Shown here: positions 11,917 through 34,437 of the stretch, piece after piece
Layout of the letters: each line of letters opens with the position of its first letter
Numbering within the stretch: position 1 is the first letter of the stretch
From: Corynebacterium mycetoides
GTDB lineage: Bacteria; Actinomycetota; Actinomycetes; Mycobacteriales; Mycobacteriaceae
DNA: 64,000 nucleotides
Assembly (NCBI RefSeq): GCF_900103625.1
Contig: NZ_LT629700.1
Location: 1,550,001-1,614,000, forward strand
Reading direction: 5' to 3'
The notes under the pieces: generated by a model
What the model was told of the DNA's origin: nothing
Seen by the model: only the letters and a program-made list of their open reading frames with translations
Database searches by the model: none
Made by a program: the position numbers and the translations under genes

Positions 11917-14253
11917 ATGATTCAGACACAACCGTCGGTTGACCTACTCCAGGTCGATCTGGGCGTCACCGGCATGACCTGTACGTCGTGCTCAGGGCGG
12001 GTGGAGCGCAAGCTCAACAAGCTCGATGGCGTGGAGGCCACCGTCAACTTCGCCACCGAATCCGCCTCCGTCAGTTACGACCCCACCAAAGTCGACGCCG
12101 ATCGGCTGATCGAAACCGTGCGGGGTGCCGGGTACGACGCGTTTACCATGGGGGATCAACACGCCTCCGCCGTGGACAGCGGCCCGGAGGAGGACACCGA
12201 GGTGGTCGGTGACCGCCACGAACAGGCCCGCGAGGCCGAGGCCACAGACCTGAAGTCGCGTCTGATCGGGTCGACGATCCTCTCCGTTCCGGTGGTCGCG
12301 ATCTCGATGATCCCGTCCCTGCAGTTCATGAATTGGCAGTGGGCCCTGCTCGTCATGTCCACCCTGATCTACTTCTACGGTGGCGCCCCGTTCCACCGGG
12401 CGACCTTAACCAACCTGCGTCACCGCTCGACCACGATGGACACGCTCGTGTCTCTGGGCACTACCGCTGCGTATTTGTGGTCGCTGTGGGCCTTGTTTTT
12501 CGGCAACGCCGGGCACCCCGGCATGGTCATGGAGATGAGCCTGCTGCCCCGCCATGACGGCATGGACCACATCTACCTCGAGACCATCGCCGTAGTCATC
12601 ACCTTCCTGTTGCTCGGCCGGTGGTTTGAGGTCCGCGCCAAGGGCCAGTCCTCCGCGGCGCTGAAGTCCCTGCTGGACATGGGTGCGAAAGACGCCGCGG
12701 TGATCCGCGACGGTGAGGAAGTCCGCGTCCCGGTCTCCCAGCTGACAGTCGGTGACGTCTTCGTCGTCCGCCCGGGTGAGAAGATCGCCACCGACGGTCG
12801 TGTCATCGAGGGCACCTCGGCCATCGACGAGTCGATGCTGACCGGCGAGTCCGTTCCCGTCGAGGCCGCCCCCGGCACCCCGGTCACGGGCGCGACGATC
12901 AACACCTCCGGTCGACTGCTGGTCGAAGTCACCCGCACAGGTTCGGAGACCACGCTGTCCCAGATGGCCAAGCTGGTCACTGACGCCCAGGCGAAAAAAG
13001 CCCCGGTCCAGCGCCTGGTGGATAAGATTTCCTCGGTCTTCGTCCCGACGGTCATTGTCGTCTCCATCATCACCCTGATCGTCCACCTCGCCCTCGGCAG
13101 CGGGGCGAACTGGGCCTTTTCCGCCGCAGTCGCGGTGCTGATCATCGCTTGCCCATGCGCCCTGGGACTGGCCACCCCGACCGCCCTGCTGGTGGGCACC
13201 TCCCGGGGCGCGCAGCTGGGCTTGTTGATCAAGGGCCCGGAGGTCCTCGAATCCACCCGCCAGGTCGACACCATCGTCATGGACAAGACCGGCACCGTCA
13301 CCTCCGGGGTCATGTCGGTCACCGGCGTCCACGCCGCCGACGGCTACACCAACAACGAGGTCCTCGCCTTGTCGGCGGCCGTCGAAGCAGGCTCCGAGCA
13401 CCCCATCGCCAAGGCGATTGTCACCGAGGCCGAGCGCTCCGGGAACATCCAGGAGGCCACCGACTTCGACAGCACCGCCGGCCGGGGCGTCACGGCCACC
13501 GTCAAGGGTCACGTCGTCACCGTCGGCCGTCCCGCCGGCCAGCTGCCCCGTGACCTCACGACCGCCTTCGACCACGCACAGTCGCAGGGCGCGACCCCGG
13601 TGGCCGTCTACGTCGATGACCAGCCCGCCGGTGTGGTCGTGGTGCGCGATGCCATCAAAGACTCCTCAGCGGAAGCGGTCGCCCAGTTCCGCAGGCTGGG
13701 GTTGAGTCCGTACCTGCTCACCGGCGATAACGCGAAGGCCGGGGCCGCCGTCGCCCAAGAGGTGGGCATCGATGCGGCCAACGTGAGTGCCGAGGTCATG
13801 CCGCAGGACAAGGTCGCGGTCATCGAGAAGCTGCAACATGAGGGCAAGAAGGTCGCCATGGTCGGCGACGGCGTCAATGACGCGGCCGCCCTGGCCCAGG
13901 CCGATCTGGGTCTGGCCATGGGGGCGGGCACGGATGTGGCCATCGAGGCCTCCGATATCACCTTAATGAACAACGACCTGCGCTCCGCGGGCGATGCCAT
14001 CCGTCTGTCACGTCGCACGCTGGGCACCATCAAGGGCAACCTGTTCTGGGCGTTCGCCTACAACGTCGTGCTGATCCCGGTCGCCGCGATCGGTTTCCTC
14101 AATCCGGGGTTGGCGGGCATTGCGATGGGCTTCTCCTCGGTGTTCGTGGTCTCCAACTCCCTTACGCTGCGTAGATTCAAGCCCTCCCACGACAACACCA
14201 GTTCCTCACCGCAGCCCGCTCGCCCCTCCGTGCGGCAGCCGGTCACCGCCTAA
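11917..14253 (+). CDS. copA: Cu(I)-exporting P1B-1 ATPase CopA
   Basis: A 778-residue ATPase that exports Cu(I). It has one N-terminal HMA domain ([14 protein letters not shown]), a His/Met-containing loop between helices ([14 protein letters not shown]), the TGES actuator motif, the CPC ion-site motif ([12 protein letters not shown], Cys412 and Cys414), DKTGT with Asp456, SEHPIA, and [12 protein letters not shown]. Length and motifs are complete. It is the island partner of copZ and csoR and is closely similar to the second copA at 32185, in which the same HMA motif is followed by a stop codon. Confidence 0.96.
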
Positions 14254-15377: not shown

Positions 15378-16619
15378 TCATGCGACCTCCTGAGTGGCTT
15401 CGCCGGCGTCGATGACGTTGGCGTTCATCATGGTCTTCGTCTGGTCCAGGGCCGTCAGCGACATGTAGCGCTTCTGCTGGATCCTTCTCACTCGTGCTGC
15501 TCAGCCAGCACCGCCCCGACCAGGCGCACGACGGCATCTCGGTTCGGGAAGATCCCCACGACGTCGGTGCGCCGGCGGATCTCCCGGTTCAACCGCTCGG
15601 TCGGGTTGTTCGACCACACCTTCGTCCACACCGTCCTTGGCGTGTTCGTGAACGCCAGCAGCTCGTCGAGCGCTTCCTCGAGGTGAGTGCGCGACATGGG
15701 GGAACTTCTGCTCACAGAAAGTCACTACTTCCCGGGCCTGGTTCCACACCGATGCGGCGTCAGGTTGCTGGAAGATCGTGTGGAACATCGCCGACAATGT
15801 CGGCCATTGGCTTTTGGGCACCAGTCCGGAGAGGTTCTTAGCGAAGTGCGTGCGACACCGTTGCCAGGAGGCGTTGGGCAGGAGCTCGCCGATGGCGTGC
15901 TGGATCCCCAGGTGCGCGTCGCTGGTGACCAGGTACACCTCATTCAGGCCGCGGGCTTTCAGGTTGCGAAAGAAACCCGTCCAGGAGGCCACGGACTCGG
16001 ATGTGGCGACCTGCATGCCGAGTAGTTCGCGGTAGCCTTCGGCGTTCACGCCGGTGGCCAGCAGCACGGAGGTTTTCACGACCCGTCCGCCTTCACGCAC
16101 CTTCATGGTCAACGCGTCGCAGGAAACATAGAGGTAGGGGCCGGTATCCAGGGGTCGGGTGCGGAAATCTTCCACCATCTGATCGAGATCTTTGGCCATC
16201 TCTGAGACCTGCGATTTTGAGAGGTTGTTGATCCCCAACGACGCCACCAGGTCGTTCATCCTGCGGGTGGAGACGCCTTTGAGGTAGCAGGTGGCGATCA
16301 CGGTGGTCAGGGCCCGTTCTGCCCGGGTGCGTCGTTCCAGCAGCCAGTCCGGGAAGAACGAGCCGGTTCTGAGTTTGGGCACGGCGACGTCGATGGTGCC
16401 GACTCTGGTGTCGAGGTCTCGGTGGCGGTAGCCGTTGCGGACGTTGGTGCGGGACTCGGATGTGGTGGCGTATTCGGCGCCGCAGATCTGGTCGGCCTGG
16501 GTGGACAGGATCTGGTTGATGAAGTTCTGCAGCATCTGTCTCATCAGGTCCGGAGAGGCTTGAGACAGCAGGTCGTCGAGGTAGGTGGTGGGGTCGATAG
16601 AATGGGGGCCAGCGGCCAT
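15378..16619 (-). pseudogene. IS256-family transposase with two frameshifts (copy A1)
   Basis: Mutator-type transposase starting at 16619 (MAAGPHSIDPTTYLDDLL). It includes CDALTMKVREGG with the first catalytic Asp region, and SDAHLGIQHAI with the second. The frame is lost after [10 protein letters not shown] near 15693 by one extra base, continues as [16 protein letters not shown] in the next frame, then shifts again near 15480 through a 5-base insertion (AGAAG). It ends with KRYMSLTALDQTK and a TGA at 15378. Removing the 6 extra bases restores a frame of about 411 residues, normal for the family. A shorter relative lies at 17999-18389. Confidence 0.85.
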
Positions 16620-16753
16620 CGTGGTGTTCCTTTCGAGGAGATGTAGGAGTTGATTCGAAAGGTACTGCGGTGGTCGCCCACATCGGACCTGACCCCTTGT
16701 TGGTGGACATAGGCTAGCCCCGGTTGACAGCCGGAGGAGGGTAGTCTCAGTTC

Positions 16754-17059
16754 ATGCCTCGTAAGTCCTATACTGAGGAGTTCAAGCGCGACGCGGTCGC
16801 GATGTATGAAGACACAGACGGTGTGTCTCTTAATTCGGTTGCTCATGATCTCGGTGTTAACCGTGGCAGTCTCGCTGCCTGGGTCAAGCGCTATGGCACG
16901 GGCAAAAAAGCCCGCGCGATTGATGCTGCAGCTCGAGCCCGGACATCATCGGATTTAGAGCGGATCCGACAACTCGAGAAGCAGAACCGGCTTCTTCAAG
17001 AAGAGCGAGACATCCTTCGCAAGGCGGCGCAGTATTTTGCGAAAGAGATGGGCTTGTGA
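16754..17059 (+). CDS. IS3-family transposase OrfA
   Basis: A 101-residue protein with a helix-turn-helix (KSYTEEFKRDAVAMYEDT ... NSVAHDLGVNRGSLAAWVKRY) and a C-terminal leucine-zipper-like coil (LERIRQLEKQNRLLQEE), the usual OrfA of IS3 elements. Its stop overlaps the OrfB start (GTGA). Confidence 0.9.
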   Translation: MPRKSYTEEFKRDAVAMYEDTDGVSLNSVAHDLGVNRGSLAAWVKRYGTGKKARAIDAAARARTSSDLERIRQLEKQNRLLQEERDILRKAAQYFAKEMGL

Positions 17060-17958
17060 TCCGCTTCAAGTTCATCCGGGACCATCGCACCGAGTATTCG
17101 GTCAAGCGGATGTGCCACGTGCTGAAGGTGCGGCGATCTTCCTATTACAAGTGGAAAAACACACAGGCCGCGCGCCGCCAGAAGGTTCTTGACGATGCTG
17201 TTCTCGGTGCTCGTATCCGCACTGTGTTCCGTGAGGAACACGGACTCTACGGAGCTAAGCGCATCGCCGCGGCGTTGAACGATCCTGATTCGGGGGCGCA
17301 TGCGGTGGTCAATCACAAACGCGTCGCACGCATCATGAAGACTATGGGCATCCAGGGGTTCACGAAGAAACGCCGCGTGCGCACCACCGTGGCAGATGCT
17401 GGCCGTGGTGTCTTTCCAGATCTTGTTTGCAGGCAGTTTCATGCCCCGGCGCCGAATCGCGTGCTCGTCGGCGACATTACCTACCTGCCGGTATCCGGTG
17501 GCGGCAATATGTATCTTGCCACCGTGATCGATTGTTATTCCCGCAGGCTGGTGGGATTTTCTATTGCTGACCACATGCGCGTCGATCTGGTTATCGATGC
17601 GCTGGACTCAACACAGCGCGCCCGAGGCAGTCTGAAAGGAGCGATTTTTCATTCAGATCACGGCAGTGTCTATACCTCGAAGGCATTTAGCTCACGATGC
17701 ACGATGCTAGGGGTGACCCAATCGATGGGAGCGGTGGGAACCAGCGCAGACAACGCGCTAGCGGAGTCGTTCAACGCGACATTGAAACGCGAGGTGCTGC
17801 AAAACCGGAAATGCTTCGACTCACTGCTGCACGCCAGACGGGACGTCTTCGCGTGGTGTGTGCGCTACAACCAGAAGCGCAGACACTCATGGTGCGATTA
17901 TCTGTCGCCCCTCGAGTTCGAAAACCGCACCTGCGGTAAACTCACCTTGACCGCATAA
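17056..17958 (+). CDS. IS3-family transposase OrfB (DDE integrase)
   Basis: A 300-residue rve-type integrase. The DDE residues are visible in VGDITYLP, FHSDHGSVYTS and NALAESFNATLKRE, and the HTH_21 region (REEHGLYGAKRIAAAL) precedes them. The frame is intact with GTG at 17056 overlapping OrfA by 4 nt. In many IS3 elements OrfAB is made by -1 frameshifting, but here simple coupling is also possible. The element appears able to transpose. Confidence 0.92.
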   Translation: MIRFKFIRDHRTEYSVKRMCHVLKVRRSSYYKWKNTQAARRQKVLDDAVLGARIRTVFREEHGLYGAKRIAAALNDPDSGAHAVVNHKRVARIMKTMGIQGFTKKRRVRTTVADAGRGVFPDLVCRQFHAPAPNRVLVGDITYLPVSGGGNMYLATVIDCYSRRLVGFSIADHMRVDLVIDALDSTQRARGSLKGAIFHSDHGSVYTSKAFSSRCTMLGVTQSMGAVGTSADNALAESFNATLKREVLQNRKCFDSLLHARRDVFAWCVRYNQKRRHSWCDYLSPLEFENRTCGKLTLTA

Positions 17959-17998
17959 GTTCAATTCCCTGTGTCCACTTTCCAGGGGTCGGGCCCCC

Positions 17999-18389
17999 CA
18001 AGTGTTGCCACCAGGTCATTCATCCTGCGGGTGGAAACCCCTTTGAGGTAGCAGGTCGCGATCACAGTCGATAAGGCGCGCTCGGCCCGTGAGCGGCGCT
18101 CTAACAGCCAGTCCGGGAAGAACGCTCCGTGGCGCAGTTTCGGCACCGCCACATCGATCGTGCCCACACGGGTATCAAGGTCGCGGTGACGGTACCCGTT
18201 GCGGTGGTTGACCCGCTCGGCAGAAGCGACACCATATTCAGCCCCGCAAACGGTGTCAGCTTGGGCGGAGAGGATCTGGTTGATAAACCCTTGCAGCATC
18301 TGCCGCATCAGATCCGGGGAGGCCTGTGCCAGCAGATCGTCCAGATAGGTTGCAGGGTCGATAGAATGCGGAGCAGCGGTCATCGTCAT
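17999..18389 (-). pseudogene. IS256-family transposase, truncated N-terminal fragment (copy A2)
   Basis: Starts at 18389 (MTMTAAPHSIDPATYLDDLL) and is a diverged relative of copy A1 at 15378-16619, colinear with it up to MNDLVATLG. The next codons belong to the IS3 end. All catalytic regions are lost. The upstream region of both copies (GAAAGGT and GATGTAGGAG/GATGTGGTAG) is also similar. Confidence 0.85.
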
Positions 18390-18461
18390 GTGCCTTTCGG
18401 TGAGATGTGGTAGTTGAGTCGAAAGGTTACTGACGATGGCCGCCCCTATATCTGCCAGGGC

Positions 18462-18773
18462 CCACCATCAGCAAGCGTTACACCACACTAAGGGACACTG
18501 ATAATGGGAGTGCGGGACAAGAACCATCCGGAATGACCCACTAACGGACTGGCCACAATCTGATTGTGTGCCTTCGTTGCGATCTGTCTTCCGGGCTGGT
18601 TCTCGCCCCGCACCGCGATCCGGCGATTCGGTCATGACCTCATAGGAGCGTGACCTCTCACCGTGACCACCCCGGCAGGTGCCATAGTAGTAGTCCCATC
18701 AGTGTCCTGTCTGCTCGAACCCTCGGATCAGCGGCTACCTTCATCACTTCCCTATGCGAAAGCGTTGACAGCC
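18462..18773 (+). other. Left-end non-coding region of the IS110-family element (candidate bridge RNA)
   Basis: About 310 nt without a gene between the IS256 fragment and the IS110 recombinase start. IS110-group elements carry a long 5' non-coding end that encodes a structured bridge RNA specifying target and donor. Length and position fit. No such structure was computed, and the true left end of the element cannot be placed by eye. Confidence 0.35.
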
Positions 18774-19907
18774 ATGACCACAGACATCGACCTCTCCGCA
18801 AGCCCCGTCGCCGGGGTCGACACCCACACCGACACCCACACCGTCGCCGCGGTGACCCCAACCGGCCGGCACCTGGCCACCGAAACCTTCCCCACCACCA
18901 GGCCCGGCTACACACACCTCGCCGAGTTCCTCAGCAAGCACGGTGTCGGCGCCGTCGGAGTAGAAGGAACCAACTCCTTCGGTGCCGGATTAACCCGGCA
19001 CCTCATAGACCGTGGCTACACGGTCGTTGAAGTCCTGCGCCCGGCCCGCAGCATTCGACGCCGGGACGGGAAATCAGATCCGGTGGATGCCCTTGCCGCC
19101 GCGCGACAGGTCCTGACCGGGGAAGGGCTGAGCACGCCTAAAGATTCCACGGGCCCGGTGGAGTCGTTACGAGCGTTACAGATCACCCGGAAACAGCTGG
19201 TGTCCACCACCGCGAAACTCATCACAACGATGAAGTCGTTGCTGGTCACAGCCCCTGATGACATCCGCACCCGCTACGCCACGATGACCAACCACGCTCT
19301 GGTCAACGCGTTGGTGTACTGCCGACCGTCGTCGGATGTTACTGATCCGCGAAATGGTGTGCTGACCAGCCTGAAGATTCTGGCCACGACCTACCGCGCA
19401 TTGCGGGTGCAGTGCGATGAGCTGGAAACCCGGATCGCTGCCCTGGTGTCAGTGATCAATCCCCATGTCAGCAACATCGTGGGATGTGGGGCTCTTGTTT
19501 CCGCTGATCTGCTGATCAGCATCGGCGATAATCCGGAGCGCATCCACTCCGAAGCAGCGCTGGCGCACTTATGTGGAGTGGCTCCACTGCCGGCAAGCTC
19601 TGGGCGAACCAACCGGCACCGGCTCAATCGTGGTGGTGACCGGCGGGCGAACTCAGCGTTGTACCGAATCGCTATGGTGAGGATGAAGTGTGACCAGCGC
19701 ACCAGGGAGTACGTCGCCCGGCGTACCGAGGAGGGGTTGTCGAAAAGGGAGATTATTCGCTGCCTGAAGCGCGCGATCGTCCGGGAGATCTACCGGGTCA
19801 TATGCACCAGGCGCAGTACGTCACAGCCCAGGGATCTTCGTCGGGATGAGTTGAAAGAACTGCGTATCGCGAAGCATCTCACCCAGGTGGTTGTAGCGAA
19901 GCATTGA
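18774..19907 (+). pseudogene. IS110-family recombinase, C-terminus cut off by an IS256-family insertion
   Basis: DEDD-type recombinase. The N-terminal RuvC-like domain shows GVDTHTDTHT, GVEGTNSFG and KSDPVDALAAARQ; the C-terminal Transposase_20 domain shows CGVAPLPASSGRTNRHRLNRGGDRR with the Ser expected in the active site. The ATG at 18774 is chosen because the family begins there (MTTDIDLS). The frame ends in AAGCATTGA only because an IS256 element inserted there. Its former 3' end continues at 21353-21450 (GCAPARISDIETGKRPLTELASAYEKF), giving a restored 409-residue protein. The missing tail is the helix-turn-helix-like end seen in many relatives, so the 377-residue product may or may not act. 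Confidence 0.85.
19897..19905. repeat. 9-bp target duplication, left copy
   Basis: CGAAGCATT directly before the left end of the IS256-family element; the same 9 bases follow its right end at 21344-21352. An 8-9-bp duplication is usual for IS256-family insertion. Confidence 0.8.
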
Positions 19908-21343
19908 GCGTGTCAAGTTGTTTGTGTGTGGGGCGTGATTATTAGAGGTAGGGCTCGAAGCGGTCAGGGTAAGCCACAGACATCTGGTTGATGGCCTGCT
20001 TCCAGTTCGTCACCCGCCTGCCCTCGATCAGCCGGCCGCTGGTCGCCGCGACCCGTTTGCCCTGCTTAGCACGCTTGGCGGCCCGTTTGTCCTCAATGTT
20101 GCAGATCATCAACCACAAGGTTTTGATCGCAGACTCATCGTTGGTGAACTGCACCCGATTCCGGGTGGCTTTACGCAGCTCGTTGTTCATCGACTCAATC
20201 GAGTTCGTGGTGTAGATCACCTTCCTAGCCATCGGTGGGAACTCCAGGAACGGGATGAACCGGTCCCACGCATCGCGCCACACCTTGACTGACTGCGGAT
20301 ACTTTTCCCCCAGCTCGGAGGCCTCGAACTCCGTCAACGCCGCCAGAGCGGTTTGCTCGGTGGGGGCGGTGTAGATCTTCTTCAACTCGGCGGACACCGC
20401 CTTACGATCTCCATAGGCCACCCACCGGTTTGCTGCCCTGATCAGGTGGACGACACAGGTCTGGACCATCGAATCCGGCCAGGTGGCTTCCACAGCCTCC
20501 GGCAGACCCTTGAGCCCGTCACAGCACACGATGAACACATCGTGCACTCCGCGGGTAGCGAGGTTGGCACACACCTGCGCCCAGAACGAGGCTCCTTCCT
20601 CTTTAGCCAGCCAGATACCCAGGATGTGTTTGATCCCCTCCATGTCCACCCCGATAGCCAGGTACGCGGATTTGTTGACCACCCGGCCCCCGTCACGGAC
20701 TTTGATCCGTAACGCATCGAGGAAGACCACGGGGTAGAACTCATCAAGTTGGCGGTTCTGCCAGATCATGACCTCCTCGAGGACCGCATCGGTGATCGCG
20801 GAGATTGTTTCATGGGAGATGTCCACGCCCATGGCGGTGGCCATGTGGTGCTGGATGTCTCGGACGGTCATGCCACCGGCATAGAGACTGATGATCATGT
20901 CGTCGACGTCGGTCAGCCGGCGGGATCCTTTGGGCACCATTGTCGGCAGGAAGGATCCGTCACGGTCCCGGGGAACAGCGACATCGACCGGTCCGTAGTT
21001 CGAATCGACCCGCTTGGGGTAGGAACCGTTACGGGAATTGTTCTGACCAGCGGCTTCCTTGCTGTTCCGGTCGCCGTGCTGGTAGCCGAGGTGGGCATCC
21101 ATCTCGGCGTTGAGGCCCCGGTTGATCGAGGCCTGGAGCAGGCCCCGGACGAGATCGTTGGCATCCGTGGTGGAGGTGCCGAGCTCGTCGATCAGCTTCG
21201 CCATCTCAGGATTGGCGAGGAGCTTTTCCTCGATCGCTTTGATCTTTGCGGAGTCCTCTGGGTTTCGTCGTGCCACGGTAGTCATTCTGGTTCATCTCCT
21301 TGGTATGAGGGGAATCCCTCACACACAAACCATCTGACACCCT
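19906..21343 (-). mobile_element. Complete IS256-family insertion sequence (copy B), inserted in the IS110 gene
   Basis: The left end (GTGTCAAGTTGTTTGTGTGTG from about 19910) and the inverse of the right end (GTGTCAGATGGTTTGTGTGTG from 21340) form terminal inverted repeats around one intact transposase gene. The 9-bp direct repeat CGAAGCATT flanks the element. It interrupts the 3' part of the IS110-family recombinase and is unlike the two other IS256-family copies in this window. Confidence 0.88.
19942..21285 (-). CDS. IS256-family (mutator) transposase, intact
   Basis: A 447-residue DDE transposase starting at 21285 (MTTVARRNPEDSAKIKAIEEK). The catalytic residues are seen in VVFLDALRIKVRDGG, VCCDGLKGLPEAV and TTNSIESMNNELRK. 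Full length and without frameshift, so probably active. It is only distantly similar to the copies at 15378 and 17999. Confidence 0.95.
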   Translation of the reverse strand: MTTVARRNPEDSAKIKAIEEKLLANPEMAKLIDELGTSTTDANDLVRGLLQASINRGLNAEMDAHLGYQHGDRNSKEAAGQNNSRNGSYPKRVDSNYGPVDVAVPRDRDGSFLPTMVPKGSRRLTDVDDMIISLYAGGMTVRDIQHHMATAMGVDISHETISAITDAVLEEVMIWQNRQLDEFYPVVFLDALRIKVRDGGRVVNKSAYLAIGVDMEGIKHILGIWLAKEEGASFWAQVCANLATRGVHDVFIVCCDGLKGLPEAVEATWPDSMVQTCVVHLIRAANRWVAYGDRKAVSAELKKIYTAPTEQTALAALTEFEASELGEKYPQSVKVWRDAWDRFIPFLEFPPMARKVIYTTNSIESMNNELRKATRNRVQFTNDESAIKTLWLMICNIEDKRAAKRAKQGKRVAATSGRLIEGRRVTNWKQAINQMSVAYPDRFEPYL

Positions 21344-21876: not shown

Positions 21877-22487
21877 TGGGCTACTTTTCAAGGAGCGTTT
21901 TGGGCTACTTTTCGAAGAGCGCTGACATCCGCATTGCGGAGTTTGTGGTTGCAAGGGAACAATAGCGGAAACTCTGCAATGCAGAGTTTCCGCAGACCGC
22001 GATCCGCGCATCACCGTGCTCATCGGGGGATCCATTAACCGTCGCCTGTGGGAAGTCCGCAATGCGGACTTTCAAAGGCGGCGCCGGTGGAGGGCCCGAT
22101 GTACGGGGTCAAACCATAAGCAGCACTTGGTGGGAAGTCCGCAATGCGGAGTTTTCGGCATGCAGCGCCGGACGGTAAGTCCGCATTGCAGACTTGTTGC
22201 TGTGTTGTTCCGCGCCCGGCACGTCTCGTGGTGGGTTGCTCCGCTAAGCCGTCGCTTGTTGAAAGTCCGCATTGCGGACTTTTCGAGGGATGAGAACCGC
22301 ACGCCGTGGGGTTAACGCGTTAGCCGTTGCTTGTTGAAAGTCCGCAGCGTGGAGTTTCTTTCTGCGATAGGTTGCCGGCCAGCTACTCCTGCGGGTCCGC
22401 GGTGCGGACTGCTCGAGAGATCCGATCCGCGCACAGCGGGGCTCTAACGCACTAATCAAATGCTGCGACTCCGCTTTGCGGGGTTTA
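21877..22487. repeat. Cluster of nine related palindromes plus a 24-bp tandem repeat, between the IS nest and the rRNA operon
   Basis: No gene is visible between 21825 and 22550. Instead nine odd-length palindromes on the theme AAGTCCGCA-N-TGCGGACTT are centred near 21934, 21979, 22062, 22144, 22186, 22272, 22347, 22402 and 22477. Copy 2 is a perfect 29-mer (21965-21993, arms GCGGAAACTCTGCA); copies 3 (22053-22071) and 6 (22262-22282) are also perfect. Centre spacings are about 45, 83, 82, 42, 86, 75, 55 and 75 nt. Some linkers share words (CCGCGCA, TTAACG, CGTTGCTTGTTGAAA), so the array looks like decayed tandem units. At its left, TGGGCTACTTTTC is repeated at 21877 and 21901. Function unknown. 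Confidence 0.85.
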
Positions 22488-22635: not shown

Positions 22636-22755
22636 TTGGGTCGGCGGTAACCTACTCTCCCACCCCCTCCCGGGGGCAGTACCATCGGCGCGGGCGGGCT
22701 TAGCTTCCGGGTTCGGAATGGGACCGGGCGTTTCCCCGCCGCCATCAACCACCGA
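22636..22755 (-). rRNA. rrf: 5S ribosomal RNA
   Basis: The minus strand reads GGTGGTTGATGGCGGCGGGG at the start, then CCCATTCCGAACCCGGAAGC and GATGGTACTGC, the conserved actinobacterial 5S sequence. Ends are approximate. The 23S-5S spacer (22756-23049) holds no tRNA. Confidence 0.93.
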
Positions 22756-23049
22756 CACACCCAATGGGGCGTGCCGACCCACACACAAACCCGCGCACAC
22801 ACCGGCCTGGCCGGTCGGTGCGCACCTGTTTGATGTGGTGATGCGACAACACATATCCAATTAACCCAACCCCCGCAATCATGATCACAACAATCATGCT
22901 GCGTGTTCGGTTGGTGCGGCCTGCACCGGGTACACGCTCGTACTGTGGGGTGTGGTGTGTCAGACACTGCATAGTGGACGCGGCACACACAATAAAATCT
23001 TGTGCTCAACAAAGTCTTGTGCTCAACATTGATCGTTTGTTTGGTTGCC

Positions 23050-28053
<5,004 letters not shown>

Positions 28054-32184: not shown

Positions 32185-34437
32185 ATGATCGCACCGAACT
32201 TGCAGCACATCGAGCTCGGCGTGACAGGTATGACCTGCACGTCGTGCTCATAGCGCGTGCAGCGCAAACTGAACAAGCTCGACGGCGTCGAAGCCGCTGT
32301 GAACTTCTCCACCGAGACGGCGACGGTGGACTACGACCCCGGTGTGACCGCGCCCGACGAACTCATTGAGGCGATCCGCGGGGCCGGGTACGACGCGTTC
32401 GCCATGGCGCCTCCGGGAGGAGACGAGCGCGAGGAGGGGGCGTCGGCAAGCGATGCCCTCGATTCCGCGCGCGAGCGCACAGCCGAGAGCCTGAAAAACA
32501 CCGTGATCTGGTGCGCGTTGGTCTCGCTGCCGGTGTTGCTGGTGTCCATGGTCCCGGCCTGGCAGTTCATGAACTGGCAGTGGGCCGCGCTCGCCGCGAC
32601 CACGCTGGTGTACTTCGCCGGCGGAGCGGTGTTCCACCGCAACACGATCACGAACCTGCGCCACGGGGCGACCACGATGGACACGCTGATCACGCTCGGC
32701 ACCGCCGCCGCATACCTGTGGTCCATCTGGGCCCTGTTCTTCGGCACCGCCGGCGAGCCCGGCATGGTGATGGAGATGAGCCTTGCGCCCGGCCACCACG
32801 CGAGCGACGAAATCTACCTCGAAACCGTCTGCGTGGTTATCACGTTCCTCCTGCTCGGGAGGTGGTTCGAAGTGCGGGCGAAGGGCCAGTCGTCCCAGGC
32901 GCTGCGCGACCTTCTCACCCTCGGCGCCAAAGAGGCCTCCGTGCTTCGCGACGGCACCGAGGTGCGCATCCCCACCAGCCAGCTCGTCGTGGGGGATGAG
33001 TTCGTGGTTCGCCCCGGCGAGAAGATCCCCACGGACGGTATCGTCGTCGCCGGTCATTCCGCCGTGGACGAGTCGATGCTCACCGGGGAGTCCGTCCCCG
33101 TCGAGGTTTCCGACGGCTCGGTAGTCACCGGCGCGACTCTGAACACCTCCGGGCGCCTCGTCGCCCGGGCGACCCGCGTGGGCTCCGACACCACGCTGTC
33201 CCAGATGGCCCGGCTGGTCCGGGACGCCCAGGCTGGCGAGGCCCCCGTGGAGCGTCTCGTCGACCGCATCTCGGCCGTCTTCGTCCCCGCGGTCATCGCG
33301 ATCTCCGTTCTCTCACTCGTCGGCCATTTCCTCGCCGGGCACGACACCGTCACGGCGTTCACGGCCGCGGTGGCGGTGCTCATCATCGCGTGCCCTTGCG
33401 CCCTAGGCCTGGCAACCCCCACGGCGATCCTGGTGGGCACGGGCCGTGGCGCCCATCTGGGGCTCCTTATCAAGGGCCCGGAAATGCTCGAATCGACCCG
33501 CCAGGTGGGCACCATCGTGATGGACAAGACCGGCACCATCACCTCCGGCGACATGGGCGTGGTCGGCGTCGCGGCCGCCCGCGGCTGGGAGACCGACCGC
33601 GTGCTCGAGCTGGCCGCGGCGGCCGAGGCGGGGTCCGAGCACCCCATCGCCGAGGCGATTGTCCGCGCCGCGCCGACCGCGCCGCAGGCCAGCTCCTTCC
33701 GCAACGAACCCGGCCTCGGGGTGAGCGCGCTTGTCGACGCCCACCAGGTGCGCGTCGGCCGCCCGCCCAGCGACGTGGGCGAGCTCGGGGAGCTGGAAAC
33801 CGTGTTCGCGTCCGCACAGGAAGACGGCACGACTCCCGTGGTCGTGGAGGTCGACGGGGACGTGGTGGGCGTCATCTCCGTCCGGGATACCGTGAAAGAA
33901 TCGTCGGCCGCCGCTGTAGCCCAGCTCCGCGGCCTGGGGCTGGAGCCGGTGATGCTGACCGGCGACAACTCCGGCGCCGCCCTCGCCGTGGCCGAGGAAG
34001 TGGGCATCGACCCCGCCAACGTCACCGCCGGTGTCATGCCTGAGGGCAAGGTCGATGTGGTCAAGCGCCTGCAGGGCGAGGGCCGCAACGTGGCGATGGT
34101 CGGCGACGGGGTCAACGACGCCGCCGCGCTGGCGCAGGCCGACCTAGGCCTGGCGATGGGCACCGGCACCGACGTCGCCATCGAGGCCTCCGACATCACC
34201 CTGATAAACACCTCGCTCGGTGCCGTGGTCGACGCCATCCGGCTGTCCCGGCGCACATTGCGCACCATCAAGGGCAACCTTTTCTGGGCCTTCGCCTACA
34301 ACGCGCTGCTCATTCCCGTCGCGGCAGTCGGCCTGCTCAACCCCATGCTCGCCGGCATCGCCATGGCGTTTTCCTCCGTGTTCGTCGTCATGAACTCGCT
34401 GCGTCTGCGCCGTTTCGCCCCTGTATCGGGGAAGTAA
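32185..34437 (+). pseudogene. copA: Second CopA Cu(I) ATPase with an amber codon in the HMA domain
   Basis: The frame from ATG 32185 reads [22 protein letters not shown], then TAG at 32251-32253, then [16 protein letters not shown] without any shift. The island copA has GGG (Gly) at this point. Everything downstream is intact: TGES, CPC ([12 protein letters not shown]), DKTGT, SEHPIA and GDGVND. Re-initiation at GTG 32257 could give a 726-residue pump lacking the CxxC motif of the HMA domain. Since that domain is regulatory rather than essential in several CopA proteins, partial function is possible. It could also be a null allele tolerated because of the island copA, or a sequencing error. 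Confidence 0.85.

Follow-up and report, generated by a model that had tools for sequence, protein, structure and literature searches.

REP and REPIN sequences are short dispersed palindromes, and their partner proteins, the RAYTs, are HUH nucleases of the Y1 type; a tetranucleotide of the GTAG or GGAG type at the foot of the palindrome is a feature of REP. The ParB-parS and Noc-NBS systems also have multi-copy palindromic sites, and homing endonucleases of the HNH type are encoded beside their recognition sites. Here we compare with these systems an array of palindromes that lies beside an rRNA operon of Corynebacterium mycetoides (genome G000, 2.27 Mb), in a stretch of 64,000 nucleotides (G000:C1:1550001-1614000, referred to as the window). 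We put at about three in four the probability that the palindromes of this array are clustered cognate sites at which DUF222-HNH ("13E12") endonucleases, encoded elsewhere in the genome, bind, a reading that is based on comparison of sequences. The protein family is already known, and we know of no established target for it. Its pairing with palindromes does not appear in the literature searched: among openly licensed papers, in the parts of their text that were available, there was no report linking DUF222/13E12 HNH proteins to palindromic sites.

The array (21926-22484) is composed of nine related odd-length palindromes, and is located past the 3′ end of a minus-strand 16S-23S-5S operon. Its features, and those of the operon, are as follows.

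21877 to 21921, no strand: 21-nt word in two tandem copies (TGGGCTACTTTTC...), marking one edge of the array
21926 to 21942, no strand: palindrome 1, CATCCGCATTGCGGAGT, centre 21934
21965 to 21993, terminator-like on the minus strand: palindrome 2, perfect, 14-nt arms, core ACTCTGCAATGCAGAGT, centre 21979
22053 to 22071, no strand: palindrome 3, perfect, 9-nt arms, AAGTCCGCAATGCGGACTT, centre 22062
22136 to 22152, no strand: palindrome 4, AGTCCGCAATGCGGAGT, centre 22144
22178 to 22194, no strand: palindrome 5, AGTCCGCATTGCAGACT, centre 22186
22262 to 22282, no strand: palindrome 6, perfect, 10-nt arms, centre 22272
22339 to 22355, no strand: palindrome 7, degenerate, 5/8 inner pairs, centre 22347
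22394 to 22410, no strand: palindrome 8, degenerate, 6/8 inner pairs, centre 22402
22468 to 22484, no strand: palindrome 9, degenerate, 6/8 inner pairs, centre 22476
22639 to 22756, minus strand: 5S rRNA (Rfam), with the array past its 3′ end
23049 to 26130, minus strand: 23S rRNA (Rfam)
26533 to 28053, minus strand: 16S rRNA (Rfam)

An earlier reading of this DNA, made from its letters alone (the sequence-only reading), had described nine palindromes, three of them perfect with uninterrupted arms of 14, 9 and 10 nt. The arms are as described and all nine units are present, but nine is a generous count, because the last three are weak. The pattern AGTCCGCANTGCGGACT, allowing up to 3 mismatches, has 7 matches in the window against 0.32 expected, and all 7 are inside the array. 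Odd palindromes with at least 6/8 pairs number 11 in 21877-22487, compared with a mean of 3.0 and a maximum of 8 in 500 shuffles, and with 4.3 per equal length in the remaining window. The centres are spaced by 45, 83, 82, 42, 86, 75, 55 and 74 nt. These spacings of 42-86 nt and the divergence of the units bear out the earlier view that this is not CRISPR, which has near-identical, regular repeats; cas genes were not searched for. The only RNA families found in the window using Rfam were rRNA.

The palindromes are not confined to this operon. Over the whole genome the same pattern, again with up to 3 mismatches, is found at 74 places against 10 for a reversed control, which is far above chance. 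Most of these places fall in six clusters, comprising 65 units, 54 of which are downstream of the four rRNA operons. The other clusters that follow 5S genes are at 56.9-57.5 kb, 494.9-495.7 kb and 1239.6-1241.0 kb, so that every rRNA operon has an array; the one at 494.9-495.7 kb is 2.3 kb downstream of its operon, with transposase-like open reading frames intervening. The two remaining clusters are at 390.7-391.2 kb, after an ilvC-like gene (the gene names ilvC and mpa are those that we presume from the sequences), and at 548.9-549.0 kb, before a DUF222-HNH gene. The clusters examined are intergenic, as judged from lists of open reading frames. Units with the same flanks recur in two of the rRNA arrays, a sign of gene conversion or duplication. 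The linkers had been said to drift; this is not simply so, since several units in these two arrays have identical 6-nt flanks. The units of the ilvC cluster in C. mycetoides all have the same orientation (8/8, centre A).

Away from rRNA operons, the palindromes repeatedly sit directly upstream of DUF222-HNH genes, whose products have about 380-490 amino acids. At 23 DUF222 loci in seven genomes, the core (up to 3 mismatches) was found upstream of 7, all belonging to one subfamily; it was found upstream of none of 13 relatives with strong DUF222 matches, nor of three further DUF222 loci, one of which was read in the wrong frame. The genes at 547.5 kb in G000 and 1930.5 kb in G020 fell below the threshold of the DUF222 search, and were added from other searches. 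The label P-type is used here for DUF222-HNH genes of the kinds at 18.6 kb and 547.5 kb of G000:C1. The linked proteins match HNH and DUF222 models (three proteins and 73 relatives). In the three proteins tested, the HNH model was over its cut-off in all and the DUF222 model in two, with the 547.5-kb protein matching DUF222 below cut-off (E 0.0015). The residues of the HNH motif are conserved. In NCBIfam the HNH part matched IscB and a restriction enzyme, in each case below the cut-off, and a search of solved structures gave weak matches alone, mostly to the HNH part. Partial relatives occur once among plasmid records (40% identical) and once among phage records (35%). An anti-phage system was considered and set aside, as PADLOC matches were weak (best E 0.0054; 2, 0 and 1 families for the three proteins).

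A search for the subfamily with query A1 found relatives in 41 of 151 genomes of the genus; many corynebacteria encode several DUF222-HNH proteins. The analysis covered 82 loci in 40 of these 41 genomes, leaving out partial-query rows and locus L143, which is on a short contig; a few partial rows were kept in G009 and one in G066, and proteins split over two rows in G117 and G009, each within a single open frame, were counted as one locus each. The copy number of the palindrome tracks the gene. At least three exact copies of TCCGCANTGCGGA were found in 20 of the 21 genomes that have a close relative (>550 bits), against 4 of 130 others (Fisher p 5e-20, a value that is too strong because the species are related). 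The four exceptions are G009, G096, G107 and G117, and a partial or more distant match is present in each of them apart from G107; the G117 gene is placed among the close relatives by the tree, but was reported as two rows.

Most genes of the family are preceded by a palindrome type of their own. A GC-N3/4-GC palindrome with matching flanks occurs 90-650 nt upstream at 66 of the 82 loci (13.3 when shuffled), and a strong one at 53 (1.9 when shuffled); a stricter scan of 100-400 nt upstream gave 57 loci. The half-sites include AGTCCGC, ACTCCGC, TGTCCGC, ACTCTGC, ACTATGC, TTCTGC, GTGCGC and GATGC, among others. Paralogs within one genome often have different palindromes, while orthologs share a type: in C. 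mycetoides the 18.6-kb gene has ACTCCGC and the 547.5-kb gene AGTCCGC, each of which is common to the nearest relatives elsewhere. The gene is present five times in genome G066, in copies that share about 90-96% identity; these are accompanied by tandem arrays built from 45-nt units around TATGCANTGCATA, and one array is 1.4 kb from its gene. Three gene copies with GATGCACGTGCATC arrays are present in G132, one of them with part of its array split off by about 1.5 kb. These three are 96-98% identical, and the identity stops 12-19 nt beyond the stop codon, with unrelated sequence after it, which shows that the gene and its upstream sites were copied together. G117 and G009 have further palindrome types; at L162 in G117 there is a tandem array that switches between two types roughly every 33 nt, and these types resemble the sites that go with the two nuclease genes of this genome.

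The type of palindrome follows the protein tree, as shown by comparison with trials (300) in which labels were shuffled only among paralogs of the same genome. On the 66-row tree, the half-site 4-mer requires 23 changes, whereas the shuffles averaged 32.2 and in no trial came down to 23; the spacer length requires 6 (mean 13.0, none as few); and the last two bases require 13 (mean 19.0, one trial as few). One alignment column is Arg in all 21 proteins with ATGC half-sites (18 TATGC and 3 GATGC, near-identical copies included) and in 2 of the 45 others. The correlation is 0.93, the next best column in the protein giving 0.56. This column is residue 76 of P0009, in the second helix (68-83) of the predicted helix-turn-helix. 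Among six independent contrasts on well-supported branches, 4-5 agree and none disagree (p ~0.06). The one-residue match suggests that the palindromes and the DUF222-HNH proteins have changed together, and the tree and the Arg column thus lend support to the earlier suggestion of selection on the palindrome.

Arrays at rRNA operons recur in gene-positive genomes, yet are not universal. They are present at all four operons of G020 (complete) and of G042 (near-complete), and those of G020 are a mixture of the types belonging to its two nuclease genes. In G042 both P-type copies (L119 and L066) have a stop near the N-terminus, and the rRNA arrays persist. Palindromes of the family's types also follow 5S in G038 (its one operon, five sites), G049 (three of four operons, one or two sites each), G066 (two of four), G132 (two of three viewed, of five) and G016 (single sites at two of four). 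The G132 sites include ACTATGCCGGGCATAGT, which is close to sites upstream of its 81.4-kb gene. Palindromes of the own type were not seen at the operons viewed in G009, G070, G095, G113, G117 and G121 (three each), G120 (two) and G140 (one). One operon enters the gene-positive set twice (1.5 and 3.8 kb). The 30 rRNA loci of eight genomes that lack the gene contain 4 palindromes, against 3.2 expected. The check on relatives was positive for G020 and G042, but the core at up to 1 mismatch is held by 7 of 61 genomes of the genus, and many lack it. The ilvC-associated cluster is at an equivalent location in G000, G020 and G021 (L037 7721-8154; L077 3674-3922; L085 3708-4176). Clusters or single sites are located between mpa-like and HNH genes in G000, G020 and G042, and G021 has a cluster before its HNH gene. 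A scan of named genomes with a 19-mer found single palindromes in 19 stretches, two from Corynebacterium and the others from scattered taxa, as in chance matches. Carriage by viruses was considered and set aside: 20 viral stretches had one palindrome each, without arrays.

The system has several features in common with REP/RAYT. Both have short, extragenic, dispersed palindromes that are clustered, a dedicated nuclease gene with the same palindromes adjoining it, and insertion sequences near the repeats. The linked nuclease is DUF222-HNH, however, and not a tyrosine HUH enzyme (RAYTs elsewhere in the genome were not searched for), the sites look like the half-sites of a dimer, and the variants differ by protein clade. 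A GTAG-type foot directly precedes the core in two units only, both in the ilvC cluster (6-nt flanks, by eye). ParB-parS and Noc-NBS are similar in their multi-copy palindromic sites, and the predicted N-terminal helix-turn-helix most resembles, although not conclusively, the DNA-binding domains of ParB and Noc. The sites of G132 also share the centre CACGTG, which we take to be that of parS. The differences are that here an HNH nuclease is fused, and that the sites cluster at rRNA operons and at the gene itself. The N-terminal CTPase domain of ParB (ParBc) was not matched by any of three proteins at E up to 0.1, nor was it among the families shown (25 of 27) for the 73 members. Two further observations concern parS-like sequences. 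In G132 (L188) another palindrome array, GGCTACACGTGTAGCC, with the presumed parS centre CACGTG, is found 250-1230 nt downstream of 5S; and in three species (L120, L126, L128) a parS-like palindrome, GTTTCACGTGAAAC, is 630-900 nt upstream of a P-type nuclease gene.

Homing endonucleases resemble the present system in having an HNH domain and a gene beside putative recognition sites, and the multi-copy rRNA operon would be a natural target; they differ in that the arrays here are remote from the gene, and that no intron or intein host was seen, none having been looked for. The copied units of G132, placed in unrelated sequence, are compatible with homing-type copying, but would not be proof of it. 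The 13E12/REP13E12 genes of Mycobacterium belong to the same DUF222-HNH family and are multi-copy, but no palindromic partner sites are described for them in the part of the source that was available (PMC4181829), whereas here there are cognate sites and arrays. Because the linked nuclease is not an HUH enzyme, and neither a general tetranucleotide foot nor the CTPase domain was found in the sets tested, we file the system with neither REP/RAYT nor ParB/parS. The best reading is that it is a variant among repeat-nuclease partnerships in general, one that resembles REP/RAYT in the way it works while its parts are unrelated. The sequence-only reading had offered both REP-like elements and operators of a dimeric regulator: the palindromes are indeed dispersed in the manner of REP and are probably sites for a dimeric protein, but the candidate is a DUF222-HNH endonuclease rather than an ordinary regulator.

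The strongest rival for the function of the sites is autoregulation, in which the palindromes would control the nuclease promoter and the arrays at rRNA operons and elsewhere would act as a sponge, keeping the protein away from other DNA until DNA damage occurs, with no need for mobility. We consider this a realistic possibility, if not the favoured one, and both may hold. In 54 of 66 genes the nearest site precedes the matched start by 110-210 nt, which fits this explanation; so does the presence of LexA-box-like sequences (at least 10/12 to TCGAACNNNNGTTCGA) within 300 nt upstream of 47 of the 82 genes, in 29 of 40 genomes, where about 1 is expected. In M. tuberculosis, where the LexA box is TCGAAC(N)4GTTCGA, HNH genes of the 13E12 family are among the newly proposed LexA targets, according to the part of the source available (PMC4181829). 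The two P-type genes of C. mycetoides themselves have no LexA-box-like match at this threshold within 300 nt upstream, and autoregulation leaves unexplained the arrays after rRNA operons and the ilvC-like gene in several species, the tandem expansion, and the copied units of gene plus array. A decayed satellite, shaped by unequal exchange and by gene conversion between rRNA operons with the nuclease gene as a bystander, would account for the units and flanks common to two C. mycetoides arrays and for regular tandem periods (45 nt in G066, about 65 and 103 nt in G117). We think it unlikely, as copy number tracks the gene, and neither paralog-specific palindromes nor the recognition-helix residue would be expected of a bystander.

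It had also been proposed that the units are hairpins forming a transcription or replication barrier 3′ of the rRNA operon; we took this more broadly, as RNA or DNA hairpins that serve in termination, processing or fork arrest. An array is downstream of all four operons in C. mycetoides. When six units were folded as RNA, good folds resulted for three (z −6.7, −4.6 and −3.6), but the remaining three gave weaker folds or values close to background (z −2.2, −0.8 and −0.6). The statement that T-tracts are absent was nearly right, except that terminator-like stretches number three, where shuffles give 1.3, and one (21993-21965) is on the rRNA strand. Terminator-like features are limited to some of the units, and ordinary terminators were set aside. 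A check for compensatory changes in the arms gave one clear case, unit 2, but arm position 7 shows no overall co-variation across the 65 units (Fisher p 0.24). Such units are also present in front of nuclease genes and behind the ilvC-like gene, and the rRNA loci of the eight gene-less genomes have no such structure. A transcription or replication barrier is thus not borne out, and we regard hairpin function as very improbable. Helical phasing was tried and is not claimed, because the resultant of 0.49 at 10.5 bp (58 spacings) falls to 0.30 for the 26 distinct values.

For the endonuclease-site partnership that we prefer, a mechanism can be outlined. A dimer would read two half-sites (NSTCC-GC-N3-GC-GGASN in C. 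mycetoides) by means of its N-terminal ParB/Noc-like helix-turn-helix. Less certainly, the HNH domain would nick or cut at or near the bound sites, and repair would then copy palindrome units to new places. Once one rRNA operon had an array, the remaining operons could gain it; we propose that rRNA operons are favoured because their several near-identical copies can be mutual templates. On this view repeat and nuclease would act as partners, as in REP/RAYT; the system would be partly selfish, and under DNA-damage control in many species. The proposal in full is that of an as yet undescribed class of chromosomal repeat system in which ParB-like-reading endonucleases, often controlled by DNA damage, bind and cut co-evolving arrays, copy gene and array within the genome by means of them, and, having settled downstream of rRNA operons, drive recombination between these, with a one-residue code that switches the palindrome type; taken as a whole this is tentative and rather doubtful. 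The pairing of gene and palindrome gives DUF222-HNH proteins a directly testable target, together with a predicted base-reading residue. It suggests that partnerships of the REP/RAYT kind have more than one origin, from enzymes that are unrelated, and provides a concrete explanation for the gathering of repeats at rRNA operons.

Ends that resemble those of insertion sequences, presumably of the IS21 type, abut or sit inside the arrays of several species, as though insertion there were favoured (window 21877-21921; L062 4331-7704; L067 4347-6513; L147 4447; L159 1973 and 2437). The 21-nt word at the array edge is also found beside array-bordering transposase-like open reading frames in G020 and G042. 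Between the array and the upstream genes of the window there is a run of open reading frames of several kinds (15501-21285), which we presume to be transposase-like. The rRNA operon is flanked by two ATPase-like genes that are similar to each other (11917-14253 and 32257-34437), presumably of the heavy-metal P-type ATPase kind.
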